A stretch of DNA of 22,314 nucleotides from a virus, in IMG/VR virus record IMGVR_UViG_3300049726_000133, positions 1-22,314 of that record; one strand, given 5' to 3'. A program made the translations under genes and the position numbers. Below the pieces are notes generated by a model. That model was not told the DNA's origin. It saw nothing but the letters and a program-made list of their open reading frames with translations, and searched no databases. Below are positions 5,129 through 22,314 of this stretch, in pieces. Position 1 is the stretch's first letter. Every line of letters begins with the position of its first letter.

Positions 5129-5907
5129 TGGTCTACATAATTCGGTCCCACGCATCCAGGCGGTATGAAGGTGAAACTTACGAGCGAAAACTCGTAAGGA
5201 TGTTTGGGACCACCATTGTAGGTTATTGGCCATGCGATGAACCTTCTGGGACGATCCTTTATAACCATGCCGGGATAGGGAACAGCAATGCTCTGAATGG
5301 AGTTATCTCTTCCTCTCGTTTTGTTTATCCCGGGATCGGTGACCGCCGAAATGCATTAAATTTAAACGTCACAACAGGCTTCCTAAATATATATACAGCA
5401 GATTTAAATTCCGCCTTTAGTAAAACTGAAGGAGCTGTATCTATTTGGGTTGGAACAACCTCTACCAATGTGTGGACAGATGGTCTTGCTCATTTCATTT
5501 TCTCCCTGGCCACTGCAAGCGCCTTAGATACTATTGTTTTGCAAAAAACAGCCACTAATGGAACCTTATCCATTACCGTAACCGGAAACAGTACTGCCCG
5601 AACCAAAACTTATTCTATAGGAACTACTCTCATAGGATGGTTCCACTTTGGACTTACATGGAGTTCGTCCGGTGGATATATTCATGCTTATGTAAACGGA
5701 GTGGAATTTACAGGCGCTACTGAATTGGCCTATCCTGCTTTTTCAGCAGGGGCTCTGCTCAGTACTCAATGTGTGATTGGTAACCAAACCACATCGGCAA
5801 GCGTTGCATGGCAAGGTTCCCTTGCTCATTGCCTATTGTTGAATAGGGCCATCTCTGCCAATGAAATGCTGGATGTTTATAACTATCCCATAAGGTTGAA
5901 GAGATGA
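5128..5907 (+). CDS. LamG/concanavalin A-like lectin-fold protein
   Basis: This 259-residue protein carries one laminin G-like (concanavalin-fold) domain, which usually binds glycans or proteins; on a virion it would act as an adhesin. Diagnostic parts are GYWPCDEPSG (32-41), the usual opening strand of phage LamG domains, the central GWFHFGLTWSS...HAYVNGVEF strand pair (about 170-195) and the closing GSLAHCLLLNRAISANEMLDVYN (about 231-253). The ATG at 5128 overlaps the upstream stop by one base. A second in-frame ATG at 5200 lies directly after an AAGGA with no spacing, so it is less likely. The stop overlaps the next ATG by four bases. The gene is visibly AT-richer than the TerL and capsid genes. 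Confidence 0.85.
   Translation: MVYIIRSHASRRYEGETYERKLVRMFGTTIVGYWPCDEPSGTILYNHAGIGNSNALNGVISSSRFVYPGIGDRRNALNLNVTTGFLNIYTADLNSAFSKTEGAVSIWVGTTSTNVWTDGLAHFIFSLATASALDTIVLQKTATNGTLSITVTGNSTARTKTYSIGTTLIGWFHFGLTWSSSGGYIHAYVNGVEFTGATELAYPAFSAGALLSTQCVIGNQTTSASVAWQGSLAHCLLLNRAISANEMLDVYNYPIRLKR
5177..5198 (+). repeat. 8-bp inverted repeat near the start of the LamG gene
   Basis: CTTACGAG and CTCGTAAG form a perfect eight-base stem with a six-base CGAAAA loop, about 50 bases into the LamG coding region. The second arm runs into AAGGATG at the alternative Met25. It might affect translation of this gene; chance is also likely. Confidence 0.35.
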
Positions 5908-7073
5908 GCCTATTATTACTTTTCAATCAAGGAGGAGGATCGGTACCGCAAACCGTGACAGTACCCGGGCCCGCTACGTGTTCAGCTTCTGGGATTGTAC
6001 CTTCCATAACAGCATCTTCAAATATTACATCATCGGTTGCTTCATGCCCCGCGGTTGAAGTTGCACCCTCTTTAACTGCATCTTCAAATGTTGTTTCCTC
6101 CGCGGCTTCCTCCCCGGCAAGTGAAGTTTCTCCTGCAATCGCAGCAACCGCTAACGTTGTTTCATCCGCTGCCGCATGCCCGGCAAATGGAATAACTCCA
6201 ACAATTTCAGCAGGCTCTAATCTTACAGAAGTCGCGGGAACAGCTTCAGCAGGCGCGGTAGTTCCAATTCTGACAGCAACATCCAATGTTGTAAGTCCAT
6301 ATGCTGCATCCACCGCATTGATGGTTGCACCGTCCGTTTCAGTAGGATCAAGCGCGTCAGTTACATCAACGGTTGCTACATCCGGAGCTTCTGAAATTGT
6401 TCCGGCCATAACTGCATCCAGCCAGGTTACCACTACAGCAGGAACAGCGAATGCGGCATTAATCGCGCCTTCAATTTCTATCCCTTATACCGTTTTATGC
6501 GTTGCTGGAACCGTCGCCGCATCAGCCCCCACACCCTTATTGAGTGGCGGAACGGGAGTTACTTCAGTGGCGGCCAATGCTAATGCCCAAAGTATTACTC
6601 CAACTTTAGTCTGGTCTTCTCAAATAACGTCCCTTGCTGGAATTTCTACCGCAAACATAAATGCTCCTGTAATTGTCGCTGGTTCTTTACTTACAACGAT
6701 TGCCGGGCCTGCCAATTCTCAAAGTTTTTCACCTTCCATTTCAGTGGGTGCAATAAGATTGGTTCCCGTGGCAACAAGTTTGGCAAATATAAATATTCCA
6801 TCTGTTTCATGTAATTCCTTGATGGTTATTCCTGTCAGTGTCGCCATTGCAAATATATGGCCTCCTATTATTTCAGGATCATTATTAGTTCAAATTCTTA
6901 TTTCTACTATAGCCAGGATTAAGGTTATGGAATTCAACCAGGCAGAAATTAATAAAAAAAGTGCCAGTCAACATTTCATTATGGTAAATGACTTATCTGA
7001 TGGATTTATTTTGAAATCTTACAAAAATACTACTCACATTCTCCAGGAAGTAGAAGGAGACCAGGAATTATGA
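5904..7073 (+). CDS. Tandem-repeat surface protein of unknown function
   Basis: I do not recognise this 389-residue protein as a named family. After MSLLLLFNQGGG, about fourteen degenerate copies of a ~22-residue unit fill residues 23-341. The approximate consensus is P-x-[IL]-x-A-x-S-x-[VI]-x-S-x-A-A-x-x-A-x-x-x-[IV]-x: a Pro after a short strand, then Ser/Thr and Ala-rich turns. The early copies are also similar at DNA level, with GCATCTTCAAAT recurring at 6012 and 6078, exactly 66 bases apart. Copies diverge towards the C-terminus. The last ~48 residues are non-repetitive and charged (MEFNQAEINKKSASQHF onward). It overlaps both neighbours by ATGA. A repetitive beta fibre or spacer on the head surface is inferred. 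Confidence 0.75.
   Translation: MSLLLLFNQGGGSVPQTVTVPGPATCSASGIVPSITASSNITSSVASCPAVEVAPSLTASSNVVSSAASSPASEVSPAIAATANVVSSAAACPANGITPTISAGSNLTEVAGTASAGAVVPILTATSNVVSPYAASTALMVAPSVSVGSSASVTSTVATSGASEIVPAITASSQVTTTAGTANAALIAPSISIPYTVLCVAGTVAASAPTPLLSGGTGVTSVAANANAQSITPTLVWSSQITSLAGISTANINAPVIVAGSLLTTIAGPANSQSFSPSISVGAIRLVPVATSLANINIPSVSCNSLMVIPVSVAIANIWPPIISGSLLVQILISTIARIKVMEFNQAEINKKSASQHFIMVNDLSDGFILKSYKNTTHILQEVEGDQEL
5970..6926 (+). repeat. Coding tandem repeat, ~66-bp period, about 14 degenerate units
   Basis: The protein-level period is 20-24 residues, mostly 22. The first three or four units keep clear DNA similarity, including ACTGCATCTTCAAATGTTGT-type blocks and CCGGCAA near unit ends. 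Later units conserve only the Pro and Ala/Ser pattern. This suggests growth by unequal duplication at the 5' end, with older units drifting. Confidence 0.75.
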
Positions 7074-9708: not shown

Positions 9709-10899
9709 ATGGCTGAATTTTTGAATTTACTTGAAACGATCCGGGGTGAAGAGGCATCCATCCAAAAGTTATTTGGTGGGGAAGGTAAAAATGTCTCCCA
9801 GATGCCGAAAGGCAAAAGCCCGGAATATCTGAAAAAGCTGGCCGAAACTGTCCAGTTCATGAATGATATTTTCACCGGTCGCCGTCCCTCTCACCAACTC
9901 CGGGAAGCGCTTTCCACCTCGGATTTCCCGATGTTGTTTGGGGATGTGATTGACCGCCAGGTTCTGGCAAATTACTACGCGGAACCCGGATGCTGGCCTT
10001 CTTACTGCCACCGGTCGACCGTGCCCGATTTCCGCCTGGTCAACCGCTTTGCAATTAATGGCGGCGAGGCTGTTTTGAGCAGCGTTGCCCAGGGTGAAGA
10101 ATATCCTAACTCTGCCGTTGCCGAGGCCCGCTATCAATACAGCGTGTTGAAATACGGACGCAAGATGCCATTTAACTGGGAAACCCTGATTAATGACGAT
10201 CTGGACGCGTTGAAGGATATCCCCGCCCGGTTTGGCAAAGCGGCACGCCGCAGTGAGGAAAAATTTGCCACCCAGTTGCATGTGCAGGCCGGTGGACCTC
10301 ACGCCACAGTTTACAGCGCAGCTCATCGTAACATCGTCAACCCGACTTATGCCGGAACAGCGTTTACGGTTGTAAATCCCCCTTTGAATATCTTGGGGTT
10401 GCAGGAAGCAATGGCGGTATTTGGGAACATGTTGGACTCGGACGGTGAACCCATCTTGATTGAGTCCTTCGTTTTGGAAGTACCTCCATCTTTGGAAATT
10501 ACAGCCAAAAACATAATGAACGCAGAATCCATCTGGATTGATATGAATGCGGTAGTTCCAGGTCAGGGTTATCTTTCCAGTAACTGGATGAAACAACAGA
10601 TTCAACTGGTTGTCAATCCTTACCTGGCCATTGTGAATACCACCAATGGCGGGACTGCATGGTATCTGCACGCCAATCCCGGTGTGGGACGCCCGGCTTT
10701 TGAAATGGGTTTTCTGCGCGGGTACGAGACGCCTCAGATTTTCATGAAGATGCCGAACCAGTCTACAGTTGGCGGCGGGCCTTCTCCGATGGATGGCGAC
10801 TTTGATACCGATTCGATTGAGTATAAGGTTCGTCATATTTTCGGTGGCGTGGCCGAAGATTTCAAAATGACCGTTGCTTCAACCGGCGCGGGCGTTTAA
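9709..10899 (+). CDS. Major capsid protein (HK97 fold)
   Basis: This 396-residue main shell protein follows scaffold and cement genes in standard order. The first ~65 residues are helical and charged and may be trimmed by the protease as a delta-like domain. Then FPMLFGDVIDRQVLANYYAE (about 73-92) opens the HK97-fold body; the E-loop-like stretch with VAQGEEYPNSAVAEARYQYSV and KYGRKMPFNWETLINDD resembles Mu gpT-type and related siphovirus capsid proteins. The C-terminal part includes GFLRGYETPQIFMK and an IEYKVRHIFGG strand, typical of the A-domain/P-domain end. A TAAGGAGA site precedes the ATG. GC content is high, like TerL. The stop shares a base with the next ATG. Confidence 0.93.
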   Translation: MAEFLNLLETIRGEEASIQKLFGGEGKNVSQMPKGKSPEYLKKLAETVQFMNDIFTGRRPSHQLREALSTSDFPMLFGDVIDRQVLANYYAEPGCWPSYCHRSTVPDFRLVNRFAINGGEAVLSSVAQGEEYPNSAVAEARYQYSVLKYGRKMPFNWETLINDDLDALKDIPARFGKAARRSEEKFATQLHVQAGGPHATVYSAAHRNIVNPTYAGTAFTVVNPPLNILGLQEAMAVFGNMLDSDGEPILIESFVLEVPPSLEITAKNIMNAESIWIDMNAVVPGQGYLSSNWMKQQIQLVVNPYLAIVNTTNGGTAWYLHANPGVGRPAFEMGFLRGYETPQIFMKMPNQSTVGGGPSPMDGDFDTDSIEYKVRHIFGGVAEDFKMTVASTGAGV

Positions 10900-14456: not shown

Positions 14457-16021
14457 TGACAACACTCCGAACCTTAGCTGTATATCTTGAAGCGAATATT
14501 AAGAATTACCAGACCAATATGAAAGCAGCCGGGGAGTCCACCCAAAAACTGCATGATGGATTAAATAAAATGTCTGAAGTTGCCGCCGGTGTGGTTGTGG
14601 CCGGAGTGGGTGCAGTAACCGGCGCTATTGCACTCAGTATCAAGCAAACCACAGATTGGGGCGAAACACTGGAGCACACCACTGAAATATTAGGCACAAC
14701 TTCCAGTGAATCTGCCGGTTTGGGTTATATGATGCAGACCATTGGCGGGGACGCTTCTCAGGTTACAGATGCAATGTCTAAAATGGCCAAGGGTGTTCTA
14801 ACCGCCAAGGGAACATTAGGACCAACTGGGTTAGAGATGCAAAAATTAGGTATAAACGCTCTGGATGCCCAGGGAAATATCCGACCCGCAGCGGGATTAT
14901 TTGAGGAAATTGCTACAAAAGTAAATGCAATGCCGGAAGGACTTGATAAAACATCAGCTATGATGGGTATTTTTGGAAAATCTGGCAAGGAGATGAGCGA
15001 TGTTTTAGCCGCAGCCGCCAATGGAGGACTGGATCAATATATTCAGAAAGCGAAAGATGTTGGGCTTGCTCTAACACCAGAACAAGTAGAGCAAACCAAA
15101 GCTAATGGCCGCGCTTGGAATGAACTTAATTTGGCCTTCCAGGGTATTTCCGTCACTATAGGAATGTCTTTCATGCCGGTACTTAAGGATTTGGCGGAGC
15201 AACTCAGATCAAAATTGGCAGACCCTGCGGTACAGGCGCGTATCAAAACCTTAGCGGAAGATTTAGGAAAGTTTGCCACTGATAATGCCCCCAAATTACT
15301 CAGTTTGGTTGATGGATTAATAAAATTGGTCGACTCGCTTACTAAAATTCCTGCTCCCGTGTATGGAGTGATTGGAGTTCTTACCGCTCTTGTTATTGCG
15401 ATTGGGCCGGTATGGACTGCAATTCAATCCATTATTTCCATTTGGGGAGTATTATCCGGGGTTATGGCCACTCTAACAAGTGTAACTCTCCCGGCTATTG
15501 GCGCGGCTCTTGCCGCCATTGGGTGGCCTGTAATCTTATTGGTAGCTGCTATCGGTTTATTAGTTTGGACAATTATTAATTTTGGTTCACAGGCCTGGAA
15601 TACGGTCACGATGATCGGCGCAATCATATCTACGGAATTCGGAAGGGCAGTTGACTGGGTAAATCATTTAGGGGATGCTTTTGGTGGCATAGGCCAGGCG
15701 ATTTCCAAAGCCTTGGGATGGCTTATGAAATTAGATGGGCTTTTGATAGGTTTGAAAATTCCTGATTGGCTTACTCCTGGCAGTCCAACACCTTTTGAAA
15801 TGGGCATAAGAGGAGTTTCTTCTGCCATGCAGGATGCTGTAAATCAATCTCTGCCCCAGTTCCAGGCTAAACTTTCGATGGTTGGGACTGCTTCCCCGGT
15901 ACAATCGGCTTCTCAAAATCAAACTCCTTCACTCAGTAATGCGGACGGGTTTGATTTTGATTACAACCGTCTTGCTCGGGCCATACGTGATGGTTTGCTC
16001 ACATCGGGAATGGCAAACTAA
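14456..16021 (+). CDS. Tape measure protein
   Basis: This 521-residue protein sets tail length and is ejected ahead of DNA. It begins with VYLEANIKNYQTNMKAAGEST, the usual helical opening of tape measures, followed by a hydrophobic EVAAGVVVAGVGAVTGAIAL. The region around 65-210 (ATEILGTTSSESAGL-like, then MGIFGKSGKEMSDVL) matches the conserved N-terminal core of phage tail tape measures. Strongly hydrophobic spans lie near residues 299-325 and 329-372 and probably enter the host membrane. No lysozyme or peptidase domain is visible. At about 0.15 nm per residue the tail would be near 80 nm, short for a siphovirus. The start is coupled to the chaperone by TAATG, and the stop to the hub by TAATG. 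Confidence 0.92.
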   Translation: MTTLRTLAVYLEANIKNYQTNMKAAGESTQKLHDGLNKMSEVAAGVVVAGVGAVTGAIALSIKQTTDWGETLEHTTEILGTTSSESAGLGYMMQTIGGDASQVTDAMSKMAKGVLTAKGTLGPTGLEMQKLGINALDAQGNIRPAAGLFEEIATKVNAMPEGLDKTSAMMGIFGKSGKEMSDVLAAAANGGLDQYIQKAKDVGLALTPEQVEQTKANGRAWNELNLAFQGISVTIGMSFMPVLKDLAEQLRSKLADPAVQARIKTLAEDLGKFATDNAPKLLSLVDGLIKLVDSLTKIPAPVYGVIGVLTALVIAIGPVWTAIQSIISIWGVLSGVMATLTSVTLPAIGAALAAIGWPVILLVAAIGLLVWTIINFGSQAWNTVTMIGAIISTEFGRAVDWVNHLGDAFGGIGQAISKALGWLMKLDGLLIGLKIPDWLTPGSPTPFEMGIRGVSSAMQDAVNQSLPQFQAKLSMVGTASPVQSASQNQTPSLSNADGFDFDYNRLARAIRDGLLTSGMAN

Positions 16022-17655
16022 TGGCCATAAATCCTGTCTACCCGACGCAAATTATCCATGAGGTTTATATTGGTAGTTCATGGGTTGATTTGACTCATGA
16101 TGTTATTGGCTCCCAATCCTGCAATTTTGGCATATCTGGGAATGGCCCATTGGACAGGATTGCTTCTACCGGTAATCTAAAAATAATTTTACGAAATGAC
16201 GCCGGGTGTATTGGTGGAAAAGATGGTTATTATTCTCCCAACCGGGTTGGATCATTGCCTGGATGGGATAAGGGATTAAACATTCGCCAAAAGTTTATCT
16301 ATGGCGGGATCACTTATATAAAATATTATGGTCATATTGTAAACATTCAACTTGGTTCTGGGTTTAACAAAATAGTTACTGTAGATGTCGCAGATTGGAT
16401 GGATTATGCTGCAACTCATCCTATATTTTCTCCGACAATGATTTTTGACAAAAGAATGAACGAAGTTGTATCAGCGGTTCTTGCCTTAATGCCGATACAA
16501 CCTCTGGAGACAAATTTGCAAGTCGGTGCAGACATTTTTCCGACCGTGTTTGATACAGTAAGGGCCCAAACAAAAGCCCTTACTGAGTTTTCAAAGGTCG
16601 CTTTATCAGAACTTGGTTATTTATATTTGAGGCGTGGAACAACTGGAGAGAAATTAATCTCGGAAGGTCGGCATGTTCGCCAGGGTGGGGATGTTGTATC
16701 TATTCCCACAGGCATGTTGGTTTATAACATAGCCTTGGAAGATGGATCAGGTGATCTTTTATTGGAGGATGGTAGCTACTTATTAAGTTATGCGATGAAT
16801 TATTACGATGCGATTTTCGATAATTCGATGATGGCAGCTGACGTGGGCTATGGAAGTCATTTGTTTAATCGGATTTCGGTAAAATCTTATCCACGATTAG
16901 TTGATATTGCTGCGACCACGGTTTTATTTTCTCTCTCTTCTCCTACGTCTTTGGCAGCTGGAGAAACTAAAACAGATTTACGGGGTACGTTCCGCGACCC
17001 GGTTGGGGGAGCCTCTAAGGTCGCAGGTATGAATATGGTTACTCCAGTTGCCACCACAGATTATCAGATGTTTGCAAACAGGGACGGAACAGGGACAAAC
17101 TTAACTGCAAATTTGATAGTTACTGCTGTTTATGGGGCGTCTGATGTGCTCTATACCCTGCATAATACCGGGGGCACTCCAGGATATGTTACAAAACTTC
17201 AGGCCCGAGGCAAGGGTATTTATATTTATGACCCGATTGAGTATGTCAACGAGGATACAGCCTCTAAAAACGAGTATGGCTATTTAGAATTATCTGTGGA
17301 TATGAAGTATCAGCAAAACACAGAAACTGCCGCGGCCCTTGCTGATGTGATGTTGTCCCAATTAAAAGATCCGAAAATATCGCTCAATAAAATTACTTAT
17401 CTTGCCAATTACAGTGATTTTGCAATGATGATGTTTTTCACCCTGGATATTGGCGACCTGATAAATATCAAAGAATCCCTAAACGGGGTAAATGCCAATT
17501 ATTACATCCAGGCTCTGGATTACAAAATTACCCCAGGCAAGATTATAAAATGCATCTACACCGTGGCTGAGGCAAGTAGTCTATCGTCCAATTACTGGCA
17601 ATTGGAAATGATTGGATTTAGCGAACTCGGAACCACTACCGTTTTGGGATATTAA
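16021..17655 (+). CDS. Tail-tip/hub minor tail protein
   Basis: This 544-residue protein directly follows the tape measure and probably forms the tail-tip hub, combining distal-tail and hub roles. Its N-terminal part has the pattern SSWVDLTHDVIGSQSCNFG, then LDRIASTGNLKIILRNDAGC and GYYSPNRVG, a combination typical of a common siphovirus minor tail protein family, followed by FIYGGITYIKYYGHIVNIQ and VTVDVADWMDYA. A mid-protein ALEDGSGDLLLEDGSYLL segment is a filler repeat seen in many phage tail proteins. The C-terminal LDIGDLINIKESLNGVNANYYI and YKITPGKIIKCIYTV are of hub/tail-spike attachment type. It is AT-rich compared with TerL. The fibre genes come next. Confidence 0.82.
   Translation: MAINPVYPTQIIHEVYIGSSWVDLTHDVIGSQSCNFGISGNGPLDRIASTGNLKIILRNDAGCIGGKDGYYSPNRVGSLPGWDKGLNIRQKFIYGGITYIKYYGHIVNIQLGSGFNKIVTVDVADWMDYAATHPIFSPTMIFDKRMNEVVSAVLALMPIQPLETNLQVGADIFPTVFDTVRAQTKALTEFSKVALSELGYLYLRRGTTGEKLISEGRHVRQGGDVVSIPTGMLVYNIALEDGSGDLLLEDGSYLLSYAMNYYDAIFDNSMMAADVGYGSHLFNRISVKSYPRLVDIAATTVLFSLSSPTSLAAGETKTDLRGTFRDPVGGASKVAGMNMVTPVATTDYQMFANRDGTGTNLTANLIVTAVYGASDVLYTLHNTGGTPGYVTKLQARGKGIYIYDPIEYVNEDTASKNEYGYLELSVDMKYQQNTETAAALADVMLSQLKDPKISLNKITYLANYSDFAMMMFFTLDIGDLINIKESLNGVNANYYIQALDYKITPGKIIKCIYTVAEASSLSSNYWQLEMIGFSELGTTTVLGY
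16556..16585 (+). repeat. Perfect 10-bp intragenic inverted repeat
   Basis: CAGTAAGGGC and GCCCTTACTG form a perfect 10-base stem around a 10-base A-rich loop, followed by AGTTTTC. It lies inside the tail-hub gene. It resembles a weak intrinsic terminator or mRNA stability element, but a repeat of this size could occur by chance in 22 kb. Confidence 0.4.
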
Positions 17656-17664
17656 GGAGCAATT

Positions 17665-18300
17665 ATGACAAGTCGAATAACACCACGCACCTGGGCATTA
17701 GGAGATTATATAACCGCCGCTCTGATGAATGCTCAGCTTCGGGATAATCTTAATGCCCTATGGCCATATACAACTAAAGGCGATTTAGCGGTTGCTCTTA
17801 GTTCTACTGGCCTGGATCGGCTGCCGGTTGGAGCAAATGGGCAGATTTTGACCCCTGATTCTAACCAGGCACTCGGTATAAAATGGGCAGGGGCGTCGTG
17901 TTGTAGTGCCAGCCGGTCAAATGCTTCTTCTGTCAATAACGGTGTTTCAACTCAACTTACTTTGGTTACAGAAGATTTTGATACCGATGGATTTTATCCG
18001 GGAGGTGGCAATGTAATTACCATTCCAACTGGGTTGGATGGAATTTACCTTGTTGGTGGGCAGGGGTATTGGCAAAGTTCCGCAACCCCAAATACTCAAA
18101 GAGCGATATGCCTATATATCAACACAACTTATTATTATTCATCGACCGTCCAGGATGCGGACGGAAGCGCGGTTTGGGTCAGTATATCCAGGCTTGTTTC
18201 CCTATCCGCTGGTAGCACCATAGATTTACGCGGTCTGCAAATGTCAGGTGGGGATTTGGGATTTTATGCGGCTCAACTCTGGTGCGCGAGGATGAGATAA
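17665..18300 (+). CDS. Tail fibre/receptor-binding-like protein, copy 1
   Basis: This 211-residue protein has a short virion-attachment N-terminus, RTWALGDYITAALMNAQLRD followed by NLNALWPYTTKGDLAVA, widely used by phage tail and fibre proteins. It then has a linker with GANGQILTPDSNQALGIKWAG, and a C-terminal domain of about 120 residues whose VITIPTGLDGIYLVGGQGYW and DLRGLQMSGGDLGFYAAQLWCARM pattern resembles the C1q/TNF-like jelly roll of receptor-binding tips. TAAGGAGC precedes the ATG. The next gene is a diverged copy with the same layout, and its start overlaps this stop by one base. Confidence 0.78.
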   Translation: MTSRITPRTWALGDYITAALMNAQLRDNLNALWPYTTKGDLAVALSSTGLDRLPVGANGQILTPDSNQALGIKWAGASCCSASRSNASSVNNGVSTQLTLVTEDFDTDGFYPGGGNVITIPTGLDGIYLVGGQGYWQSSATPNTQRAICLYINTTYYYSSTVQDADGSAVWVSISRLVSLSAGSTIDLRGLQMSGGDLGFYAAQLWCARMR

Positions 18301-18932
18301 TGACTGCTTTAGTCAATCCCAAAACTTGGTTGGTTGGAGAATTGGTAAATGCCGAAATGCTTAATGAGCAGCTCAGAGATAACCTAAATGTTCTCTGGCC
18401 TTATACAGCAAAGGGGGCATTGGCGTTAGCGGGGTTGACCAATAATACTCTTTTACAATTGGCAATCGGTGCCAACAAAACCTTCCTATCCGCTGATTCA
18501 ACCCAGGTTACAGGTACAAAATGGGTAACATCCGCACCGGCTGCCAGCATCAGCCAATCCGGGGCACAAAGCATTCCGAATAATTCAATTACTGTTTGTG
18601 CGATGGATACTGAAAATTATGACACCGGGACAATGGCAAATGGGAATTACATTACCATACCCACCGCCGGATATTATCTTTTACATGGTTCCTGTACGTG
18701 GAATGGGCATGCGACAGTTAACAAAATACGACAATTGGGTATTCAGCTTGGGGGAGGAAACCTAGTTTTCAACACAACTGCTCAGGCTTCAGGATCGGTA
18801 TTAACTTATATGGAACTTCATTACCTGGGATATTTTGCTCCCGGTGCAACGTTGAATTTATGCGCTCTCCAAATTTGTGGATCAGCTTTAACGATCTGGT
18901 ATTCAAATTTCACAGTTAGAAAATTGATTTAG
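18300..18932 (+). CDS. Tail fibre/receptor-binding-like protein, copy 2
   Basis: This 210-residue paralogue of the preceding gene shares the N-terminal frame TW..GE....AEMLNEQLRDNLNVLWPYTAKGALALA, the GANKTFLSADSTQVTGTKW linker and a C1q/TNF-like C-terminus with YITIPTAGYYLLHGSCTW and APGATLNLCALQICG. I prefer the ATG at 18300: it overlaps the stop of copy 1 (TAATG) and has GAGGA upstream at about 18285-18289. A GTG at 18282 would add six residues with no better site. The binding-domain sequences have drifted far more than the N-termini, as expected if the two recognise different receptors or form mixed tips. Confidence 0.77.
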   Translation: MTALVNPKTWLVGELVNAEMLNEQLRDNLNVLWPYTAKGALALAGLTNNTLLQLAIGANKTFLSADSTQVTGTKWVTSAPAASISQSGAQSIPNNSITVCAMDTENYDTGTMANGNYITIPTAGYYLLHGSCTWNGHATVNKIRQLGIQLGGGNLVFNTTAQASGSVLTYMELHYLGYFAPGATLNLCALQICGSALTIWYSNFTVRKLI

Positions 18933-20175: not shown

Positions 20176-20185
20176 AGGAGTAAAA

Positions 20186-21865
20186 ATGAAACCTTTGTTG
20201 ATCGATGTGTGGGAAGGCAATCCTAAAATAGACGTTGATACCCTTGTAACCAATGGGGTGATCGGCGGGTTTGTGCGGCTTAACAATATGCAGGGCGGCC
20301 ACCATATGGACAGCCAGTTCCCGGTATTGTGGAAGGCGTTCGAGAAATTTGCATGCAGAGGACTGTATTTTGTCTATAACCCCTGGGTAACCGGGTCGAC
20401 TAATTTCGATTGGATGAAAAACAACCTTCCGATTGATATTGGCACGCACAAAATTGCGATTGATTTGGAAGTTCGAAATGCAGGTTATTCGCCAGTGACT
20501 TATGGTCGGGAAGTTGCTGCATTTTTGGATCTTTGCAAAGGAAAATACAACACCGTCTGCTATACAGGTGGGGGATTTACCGACATTATGACGGAATGGC
20601 CAATCAGCGAATATTGGTGGGCGCGCTATCCATTCAATATGCCGGCTGGAGTGCAGAGCTGGGAGGTTTTGCACGCGGCGATTGATGCTCTACCCTGGAA
20701 CCCGGTTGTCGCAGGAACATCCGTGGGGGCTGGGCCTATCAAATTATGGCAGATTTGCGACCATACCATTGCACCAGGCTTTGGTAATTCTGCTGTGGAT
20801 TTGAATATTTTCAACGGTTCCCAGGCTGACGCGATTGCCTGGATTAATGGATCCAATTTAAACGCGGGGCAACCCGTGATAGTTCCATCAGGAGGTAATA
20901 TGGATAAAACAGCACCAAAACTTATTTATGTTTATGAGAAGCATACCGAAATTGACCTGGCAGGTTTGAACGGAAATATTGACGGTATCCTTGCTCTGGC
21001 TGTGGATCGAACTCGGGAAACCCCTTTTGACCAGAGCAATGGTTATATCAGCCCCATGTTTACCAAACAGCTGGATTGGGCGAATAACTTGCGTCCATCA
21101 GTCCCGGCAATTGCGGTTGTGGCGGTGGATCCCGGAGAATACATTCAGCCCCCACTCAACGATTTCAGCCGGTGGCCACCATTTGAGAAAGACCCGGTCA
21201 TGGTCGATGTGAAAAGGGCAATATGTTATCCGGATGGAACCACGCGTAAAGTGTCTGCGATCATTTTTGATATGCGCCATCTGAATGAAGGGCAAACCAC
21301 AAAAATAGTTCCGATTGGTAGGGTATTAAAAATTGCGGAACGATTGCAGCAATTGGCCTGGGATAACCTGAAAATATTTACCATGGTCCTGACCGATGAG
21401 CAAATTATGAAGCAGCCTGAATACCAGGATGCACAGAGTAAAAACGAAATCAGTGTATTCTTTATGGCTCATGATGACCAAAACCAATCGACAGTTGGTG
21501 AATGCATTTGCTGGACTGGATCTGTTTTAACGGATTCAGGAAATGCCATTCATTTTCCCCTGCCCTCCGATAATCCCAACCCTCACACTCCCTATGCTCC
21601 TACAGGAAATAGACTTTTACTTTGGTGGTTTTCTTCTGTAAAGGTCCAAGCGATCAAGAACAATGGCGTTCCCTACGCGGTAGCAGGTTTCACATCCCAA
21701 TGGACAACCAAAGAGCTTTATAAAATGTGGAACTTTACGCCGATCACCGGTACAGTTGTCACCCCTGAACCTGGCAACCCTCCGGCGCCTGATAATACGG
21801 ATATCCTGGTGATGGTAGATCAGATTGTGGAGCTGGCAGGGAAGATCAAACAGAAGTTACAATAA
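20186..21865 (+). CDS. Two-domain endolysin: GH25-type muramidase plus unknown domain
   Basis: This 559-residue peptidoglycan hydrolase starts at ATG 20186, with AAAGGAG upstream; the longer reading from 20114 lies inside the preceding gene. Domain 1 (about 1-215) fits a GH25 muramidase: LLIDVWEGNP with the first-strand Asp at 7, AIDLEV with the DxE acids at D93 and E95, CYTGGGF near 125-131, WWARYP at 144-149 and LWQICDH followed by AVDLNIF at 187-209. Domain 2 (about 240-525) is unrecognised; it looks like an alpha/beta barrel, with LALAVD, AIAVVAVDPGEY, AIIFDMRHLN, FTMVLTDEQ and AVAGFTSQW. A Pro-rich linker and a short C-terminal helix end it. An internal start lies exactly between the domains. 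The end overlaps the opposite-strand recombinase by 20 bases. Confidence 0.87.
   Translation: MKPLLIDVWEGNPKIDVDTLVTNGVIGGFVRLNNMQGGHHMDSQFPVLWKAFEKFACRGLYFVYNPWVTGSTNFDWMKNNLPIDIGTHKIAIDLEVRNAGYSPVTYGREVAAFLDLCKGKYNTVCYTGGGFTDIMTEWPISEYWWARYPFNMPAGVQSWEVLHAAIDALPWNPVVAGTSVGAGPIKLWQICDHTIAPGFGNSAVDLNIFNGSQADAIAWINGSNLNAGQPVIVPSGGNMDKTAPKLIYVYEKHTEIDLAGLNGNIDGILALAVDRTRETPFDQSNGYISPMFTKQLDWANNLRPSVPAIAVVAVDPGEYIQPPLNDFSRWPPFEKDPVMVDVKRAICYPDGTTRKVSAIIFDMRHLNEGQTTKIVPIGRVLKIAERLQQLAWDNLKIFTMVLTDEQIMKQPEYQDAQSKNEISVFFMAHDDQNQSTVGECICWTGSVLTDSGNAIHFPLPSDNPNPHTPYAPTGNRLLLWWFSSVKVQAIKNNGVPYAVAGFTSQWTTKELYKMWNFTPITGTVVTPEPGNPPAPDNTDILVMVDQIVELAGKIKQKLQ
20891..20895 (+). promoter_or_regulatory. Internal ribosome binding site at lysin domain junction
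   Basis: GGAGG sits four bases before an in-frame ATG at 20900 (context TCAGGAGGTAATATGG), inside the lysin gene. It is one of the strongest Shine-Dalgarno sites in the window and lies in the linker after the GH25 domain. Confidence 0.6.
20900..21865 (+). CDS. Possible separately translated C-terminal lysin subunit
   Basis: This is the same frame as the lysin, starting at Met239, and gives a 321-residue product with only the second domain and its C-terminal helix. Several characterised endolysins make a free C-terminal binding subunit from an internal start and assemble it with the full-length enzyme. The placement of GGAGG and ATG exactly at the domain boundary suggests the same here, or marks an older gene fusion whose start signal survived. 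Start use is predicted only. Confidence 0.5.
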   Translation: MDKTAPKLIYVYEKHTEIDLAGLNGNIDGILALAVDRTRETPFDQSNGYISPMFTKQLDWANNLRPSVPAIAVVAVDPGEYIQPPLNDFSRWPPFEKDPVMVDVKRAICYPDGTTRKVSAIIFDMRHLNEGQTTKIVPIGRVLKIAERLQQLAWDNLKIFTMVLTDEQIMKQPEYQDAQSKNEISVFFMAHDDQNQSTVGECICWTGSVLTDSGNAIHFPLPSDNPNPHTPYAPTGNRLLLWWFSSVKVQAIKNNGVPYAVAGFTSQWTTKELYKMWNFTPITGTVVTPEPGNPPAPDNTDILVMVDQIVELAGKIKQKLQ

Positions 21866-22314
21866 AATGATTGGTGTTAAAATGATTCCAAGCAAAGGGC
21901 AGTCTATGGATTGATGCTCCTCGGTGGCTCAGCCCTATAGCCATAAATCCTAAGTCCATAAAATCACCGGTCGGTAGATAATACCAGATGACGCCGGTGA
22001 TTTTATTATCCACAGCCTTAACATCAATGTGATCAACTAATGCACGCAGGCGATTGCGGAGTTTGTCAGGATCGTTTGTGTTGAGTGCAGTGCGCAAATT
22101 ATCAGCAGTAATGGTGACCTGGCTGGGGGAGGGAAGATTTTCGAGGACTGAAATACGATATTCGATGCTGGAGATGCGGGTTTGCAGATCTTGGAGGTTA
22201 GCTTCATTTTCCTTAAGAGCTGAAACCAGCGCTGGAGAGTGGCCAATGGCGCTAATGGTGGCAATAATATTTTTTATGGCAGATTGAATGGGTGGTTTCT
22301 GGACTTCAAGGGCA
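21846..22314 (-). CDS. Large serine recombinase, C-terminal part (partial, 5' end outside window)
   Basis: The - strand frame is open from the right edge to a TGA at 21846-21848, giving 155 visible residues. It begins AIKNIIATISAIGHSPALVS, then ALKENEANLQDLQTRISSIE, the coiled-coil part that follows the zinc ribbon in large serine recombinases. It ends with LRALVDHIDVKAVDNKITGV and IWYYLPTG, the usual closing helix and strand pair. The catalytic Ser domain and the zinc ribbon must lie beyond the window. A TTG at 22097 is not the start, because coding continues upstream. Next to a lysin it is most simply the phage integrase, but a transposon-type or invertase-type recombinase cannot be excluded. 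It converges on the lysin gene with a 20-base overlap. Confidence 0.75.
   Translation of the reverse strand, partial: ALEVQKPPIQSAIKNIIATISAIGHSPALVSALKENEANLQDLQTRISSIEYRISVLENLPSPSQVTITADNLRTALNTNDPDKLRNRLRALVDHIDVKAVDNKITGVIWYYLPTGDFMDLGFMAIGLSHRGASIHRLPFAWNHFNTNHFIVTSV
21958..22006 (+). terminator. Perfect 13-bp inverted repeat, likely (bidirectional) terminator of the late operon
   Basis: ATAAAATCACCGG and CCGGTGATTTTAT are exact reverse complements separated by 23 bases, and the loop itself holds a GGTA/TACC four-base stem. On the + strand the stem ends in GATTTTATTAT, which suits an intrinsic terminator 93 bases after the lysin stop. It lies wholly within the recombinase C-terminal codons. 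An alternative is a protein-binding or recombination site, since the whole element is 49 bases. Confidence 0.5.

Follow-up and report, generated by a model that had tools for sequence, protein, structure and literature searches.

Does the endolysin gene of an uncultured phage encode one protein or two? The question arises in the virus record IMGVR_UViG_3300049726_000133, whose 22,314 bases are referred to here as the window. Gene order in the window is usual, with terminase, capsid, and tail proteins, and the last complete gene, at 20186-21865 on the + strand, is that of the endolysin. The most likely start of this open reading frame (ORF) is the ATG at 20186, which follows the Shine-Dalgarno (SD) sequence AAAGGAG (AAGGAG at 20178-20183, + strand, -6.2 kcal/mol) and gives a full-length product of 559 amino acids and 62.1 kDa. 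Convergent with the lysin gene, an open frame on the - strand (21846-22313) runs off the window end. By eye it resembles the C-terminal part of a large serine recombinase, with a coiled coil and then '...LRNRLRALVDHIDVKAVDNKITGVIWYYLPTGDF', and a comparison of this frame with Pfam gave no significant family; if the recombinase reading is true, the phage would be temperate. Elsewhere in the window, 5904-7073 encodes a 389-residue protein built of repeating units rich in Ala/Ser/Thr/Val (...PSITASSNITSSVASCPAVEVAPSLTASSNVVSS...), which may be a fibre or decoration protein.

The two halves of the lysin differ in how readily they can be placed. Searched as a single sequence against Pfam, the lysin matched no family, including glycoside hydrolase family 25 (GH25). 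A tblastn search with the lysin matched a GH25 protein (E 8e-5), the N-terminal ~217 residues align with other GH25 domains over the full domain length, and a joint profile that included the window lysin reached solved GH25 structures with E-values down to 1.6e-38, among them 5a6s (the CTP1L endolysin). D7, D93-L-E95, and D205 occupy invariant columns of the GH25 alignment, and N207 is also kept; we take D7, D93, E95, and D205 to be the GH25 active-site acids (an Asp near the N-terminus, a DxE motif, and an Asp near the end). On the basis of alignment and profile, the N-terminal part (residues 1-217; 20186-20836, + strand) is assigned to GH25, a muramidase family. A GH25 lysin points to a peptidoglycan-bearing host, despite a major capsid protein (9709-10899) whose closest cultured viruses are the archaeal Methanoculleus viruses Blf4/L4768 (39.6% identity over 97%); genome contigs yielded no host assignment.

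The C-terminal part, which is also the predicted short isoform (20900-21865, + strand; 321 amino acids, 36.0 kDa), is an orphan. No relative of its 321 residues came up in Pfam, PHROGs, NCBIfam, PDB sequences, cultured phages, or viral contigs; a separate gene encoding the domain by itself was not found either, nor was any catalytic family in the short product. Queries with the lysin or with either domain found no full-length homologue in viral contigs, cultured phages, or genome contigs. AlphaFold run without an alignment returned unusable models (mean pLDDT 34 and 32); the domain has a Pro-rich stretch, and a C-terminal helix is predicted in a low-confidence model only. A faint likeness links residues 3-32 of the N-terminal part to residues 6-33 of the C-terminal part, but it is not significant (E=0.053; profile probability 0.4%; 9.6% of shuffles scoring as high), and a second GH25-like barrel in this half was rejected as unproven. 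A wall-binding role for this domain, which has no detectable relative, is putative.

The linker ...NLNAGQPVIVPSGGN (20837-20899, + strand) joins the last aligned GH25 residues to Met239, and it is here that the first-pass annotation had noted GGAGG (20891-20895) four bases before an in-frame ATG. The sequence, ...CCATC A GGAGG T AAT ATG GAT AAA..., confirms this: the start codon of Met239 (20900-20902, + strand) is in frame with the lysin ORF, it sits between the GH25 and C-terminal domains, and the SD element AGGAGGT (20890-20896, + strand) matches at seven of seven positions. Computed against the canonical anti-SD, which may not be the host's, the internal duplex has an energy of -10.3 kcal/mol, compared to -8.7 for the best of the 27 gene starts in the window. 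The register is common to the internal and proper lysin starts, each of which stands four bases after its SD. Ranked with the other in-frame internal NTG codons (397 in all), the site ties for first and is the top internal ATG; the codon that equals it, a TTG at 20669, has its SD-like stretch only two bases away. An out-of-frame ATG at 18011, inside the gene at 17665-18300, has the highest SD score in the window (-12.9 kcal/mol) although no evident gene begins there, and this strong pair that is not a start counts against the internal start. Local RNA folding is neutral and does not single out the internal site: its opening energy is 5.9 kcal/mol, where gene starts average 7.1 and internal ATGs 7.5.

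Related phages provide the comparison that decides between the readings. Using the tail protein at 16021-17652 as query, we obtained 77 loci from viral contigs and searched 49 records, a near-identical fragment (L003) among them, for lysins. A GH25 lysin above the Pfam cut-off was present in three of the 49 (L029, L070, and L016), and two of these three carry GGAGG-N4-ATG, encoding a GGSM linker, directly 5' of their C-terminal part. The L070 linker, ...NPPTTGGSM, is encoded as ACA GGA GGT AGT ATG directly 3' of the GH25 domain and has a full SD match (-10.3 kcal/mol). The L029 linker, ...NQNNNGGSM, is encoded as AAT GGA GGA AGC ATG (-7.0 kcal/mol) and is separated from GH25 by a NAGPA phosphodiester glycosidase domain; this lysin (16689-18647) thus consists of GH25, NAGPA (PF09992, E 2.6e-15), and a third, C-terminal part. 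A TTG inside the GH25 domain of L029 has a stronger SD-like match than the linker site, so SD strength alone is no marker of a start. The C-terminal parts of L070 and L029 have no significant Pfam match and no resemblance to that of the window, the GH25 domains that carry the element are only 18-31% identical, and the codons around the element differ between relatives.

No such internal site occurs in the GH25 lysin of L016 or in those of five cultured phages, and a search of viral contigs for more GH25 lysins related to those of L070 and L029 recovered only these two themselves. As controls, Amidase_2 and CHAP lysins were sought in the group; one Amidase_2 protein (L093) was found, without a GGAGG internal site, and no CHAP lysin. 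The first-pass annotation had looked to homologues for conservation of GGAGG and Met239, and the comparison that could be made speaks in its favour: the site is present in two of the three GH25 lysins from related phages, but no homologue sharing the C-terminal domain of the window, or both domains, was found.

Several counts indicate how unusual this recurrence is. In the proxy genes of the group (~255,000 residues), which are mechanical ORFs, GGAGG lies 4-8 bases before 20 of 4,148 internal ATGs, and three of these 20 are the lysin sites. The four lysins of the group contain 26 internal ATGs and three sites, where ~0.1 would be expected from the group's other genes (P about 2e-4, in a search that the window site itself had prompted). 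A post hoc comparison of 49 interior GGxM motifs gave GGAGG at the four-base spacing in all three lysin motifs; four further cases resemble true gene starts in over-extended frames, and none of the other 42 has GGAGG at this spacing (in two of the 42, GGAGG stands seven bases from the Met). Given the mechanical ORFs, the prompted search, and the post hoc motif, the recurrence figures are guides and not formal tests.

One interpretation of the site is that it arose by chance, a Gly-rich linker and a Met having happened to receive SD-like codons that are not used. When the protein is held fixed (linker SGGNM), GGAGG precedes Met239 in 27% of synonymous recodings, and 25-48% of recodings, depending on the strictness of the match, contain at least one such site anywhere in the lysin. 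The internal site taken alone is therefore weak evidence, suggestive but not compelling. The exact AGGAGGT is rarer, with a probability of about 1.4% for these codons, and it is mainly because two relatives repeat the element that the site exceeds chance; we regard coincidence as unlikely.

Alternatively, the C-terminal domain may once have been encoded by a separate gene whose ribosome-binding site and start codon survive, unused, in the linker of a fused gene. The element does have the complete form of a gene start and stands exactly at the domain boundary, and published work raises gene fusion as one way in which such sites arise (PMC12203907). An unused signal would be expected to decay, however, and this one is intact between diverged GH25 domains and unlike C-terminal parts, amid differing codons; nor did the searches for a stand-alone C-terminal-domain gene find one. 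We judge such a relic improbable. The recent fusion offered as an alternative in the first-pass annotation is likewise not supported, because the junction is shared by lysins whose GH25 domains have diverged and whose C-terminal parts are unlike. An old fusion that retained its start signal through continued use would be compatible with the production of two proteins.

A strong start at the domain boundary, together with the same signal in two distant relatives, leads us to conclude that this one gene probably makes two proteins, a full-length lysin and an internally started C-terminal domain. The C-terminal isoform suggested by the first-pass annotation is the best reading of the locus, and the ATG at 20900 is likely a functional start, as judged from the sequence. 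Ribosomes initiating at 20186 would make the full lysin, a GH25 muramidase joined to the C-terminal domain, and those initiating at AGGAGGT and the ATG at 20900 would make the C-terminal domain alone, of 321 amino acids. The GH25 part would cut peptidoglycan, and the extra C-terminal copies would most probably associate with the full-length protein at the cell wall or compete with it there. By analogy with other internal-start endolysins, they may tune binding and the timing of lysis. We infer use of the site, binding of the C-terminal domain to the wall or to a partner chain, and any stoichiometry between the products. More speculatively, the GGxM linker with GGAGG-N4-ATG may be a portable internal start that, in this phage group, allows each unlike C-terminal domain also to be made alone, with the 321-residue domain a novel type of second subunit; we hold this broader proposal as a tentative one that is more doubtful than the two-protein reading itself.

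The internal-start device is already known from other phage lysins, and both screens and tests of it have been made in cultured phages that infect Gram-positive hosts. Internal starts were predicted in 51.5% of 3,780 endolysins from phages of Gram-positive hosts compared to 15.2% of portal genes (PMC9430671). Here the predicted device stands in an uncultured phage lineage, with a large orphan C-terminal domain, and its signal recurs before unlike domains; this gives a way to tell function from fusion relic, a choice that the literature has not settled.

Among known systems, the Type II lysins CTP1L and CS74L of clostridial phages (PDB 5a6s; PMC4777826) match the arrangement predicted here: an N-terminal GH25 domain, a short SD-bearing linker, an internal start where the domains meet, and a C-terminal domain that is made alone. 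The linker SD of CTP1L-like lysins is mostly GGAGG, and the domain that CTP1L makes internally joins the full-length chain in a complex and modulates activity (PMC4777826). The extra product of CTP1L is an 80-residue binding domain translated from a GTG, and its complex with the full-length protein is known, whereas that of the window lysin is a predicted product of 321 residues with no recognisable family. Lys170, LysIME-EF1, and LysP7951 also give two in-frame overlapping products with a common C-terminus (PMC9430671, PMC7098653), but they have other architectures, small binding domains, and 1:3 or 1:5 complexes. In the Type I lysins Ply2638A, of the staphylococcal phage phi2638A, and Ms6 LysA, one gene gives two in-frame products (PMC12203907, PMC9430671). 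In phi2638A the short form (35.3 kDa) partners the full form (55.5 kDa), and lysis improves when the short form is co-expressed (PMC12203907). The first-pass annotation had thought the extra product larger than those described, which is accurate with respect to Type II binding domains and not with respect to the Type I short isoform of phi2638A, beside which the predicted 36.0 kDa isoform is not unusually large. The short isoforms of Ply2638A and Ms6 LysA combine a second recognised catalytic domain with a binding domain, whereas no catalytic family is recognised in the isoform predicted here.
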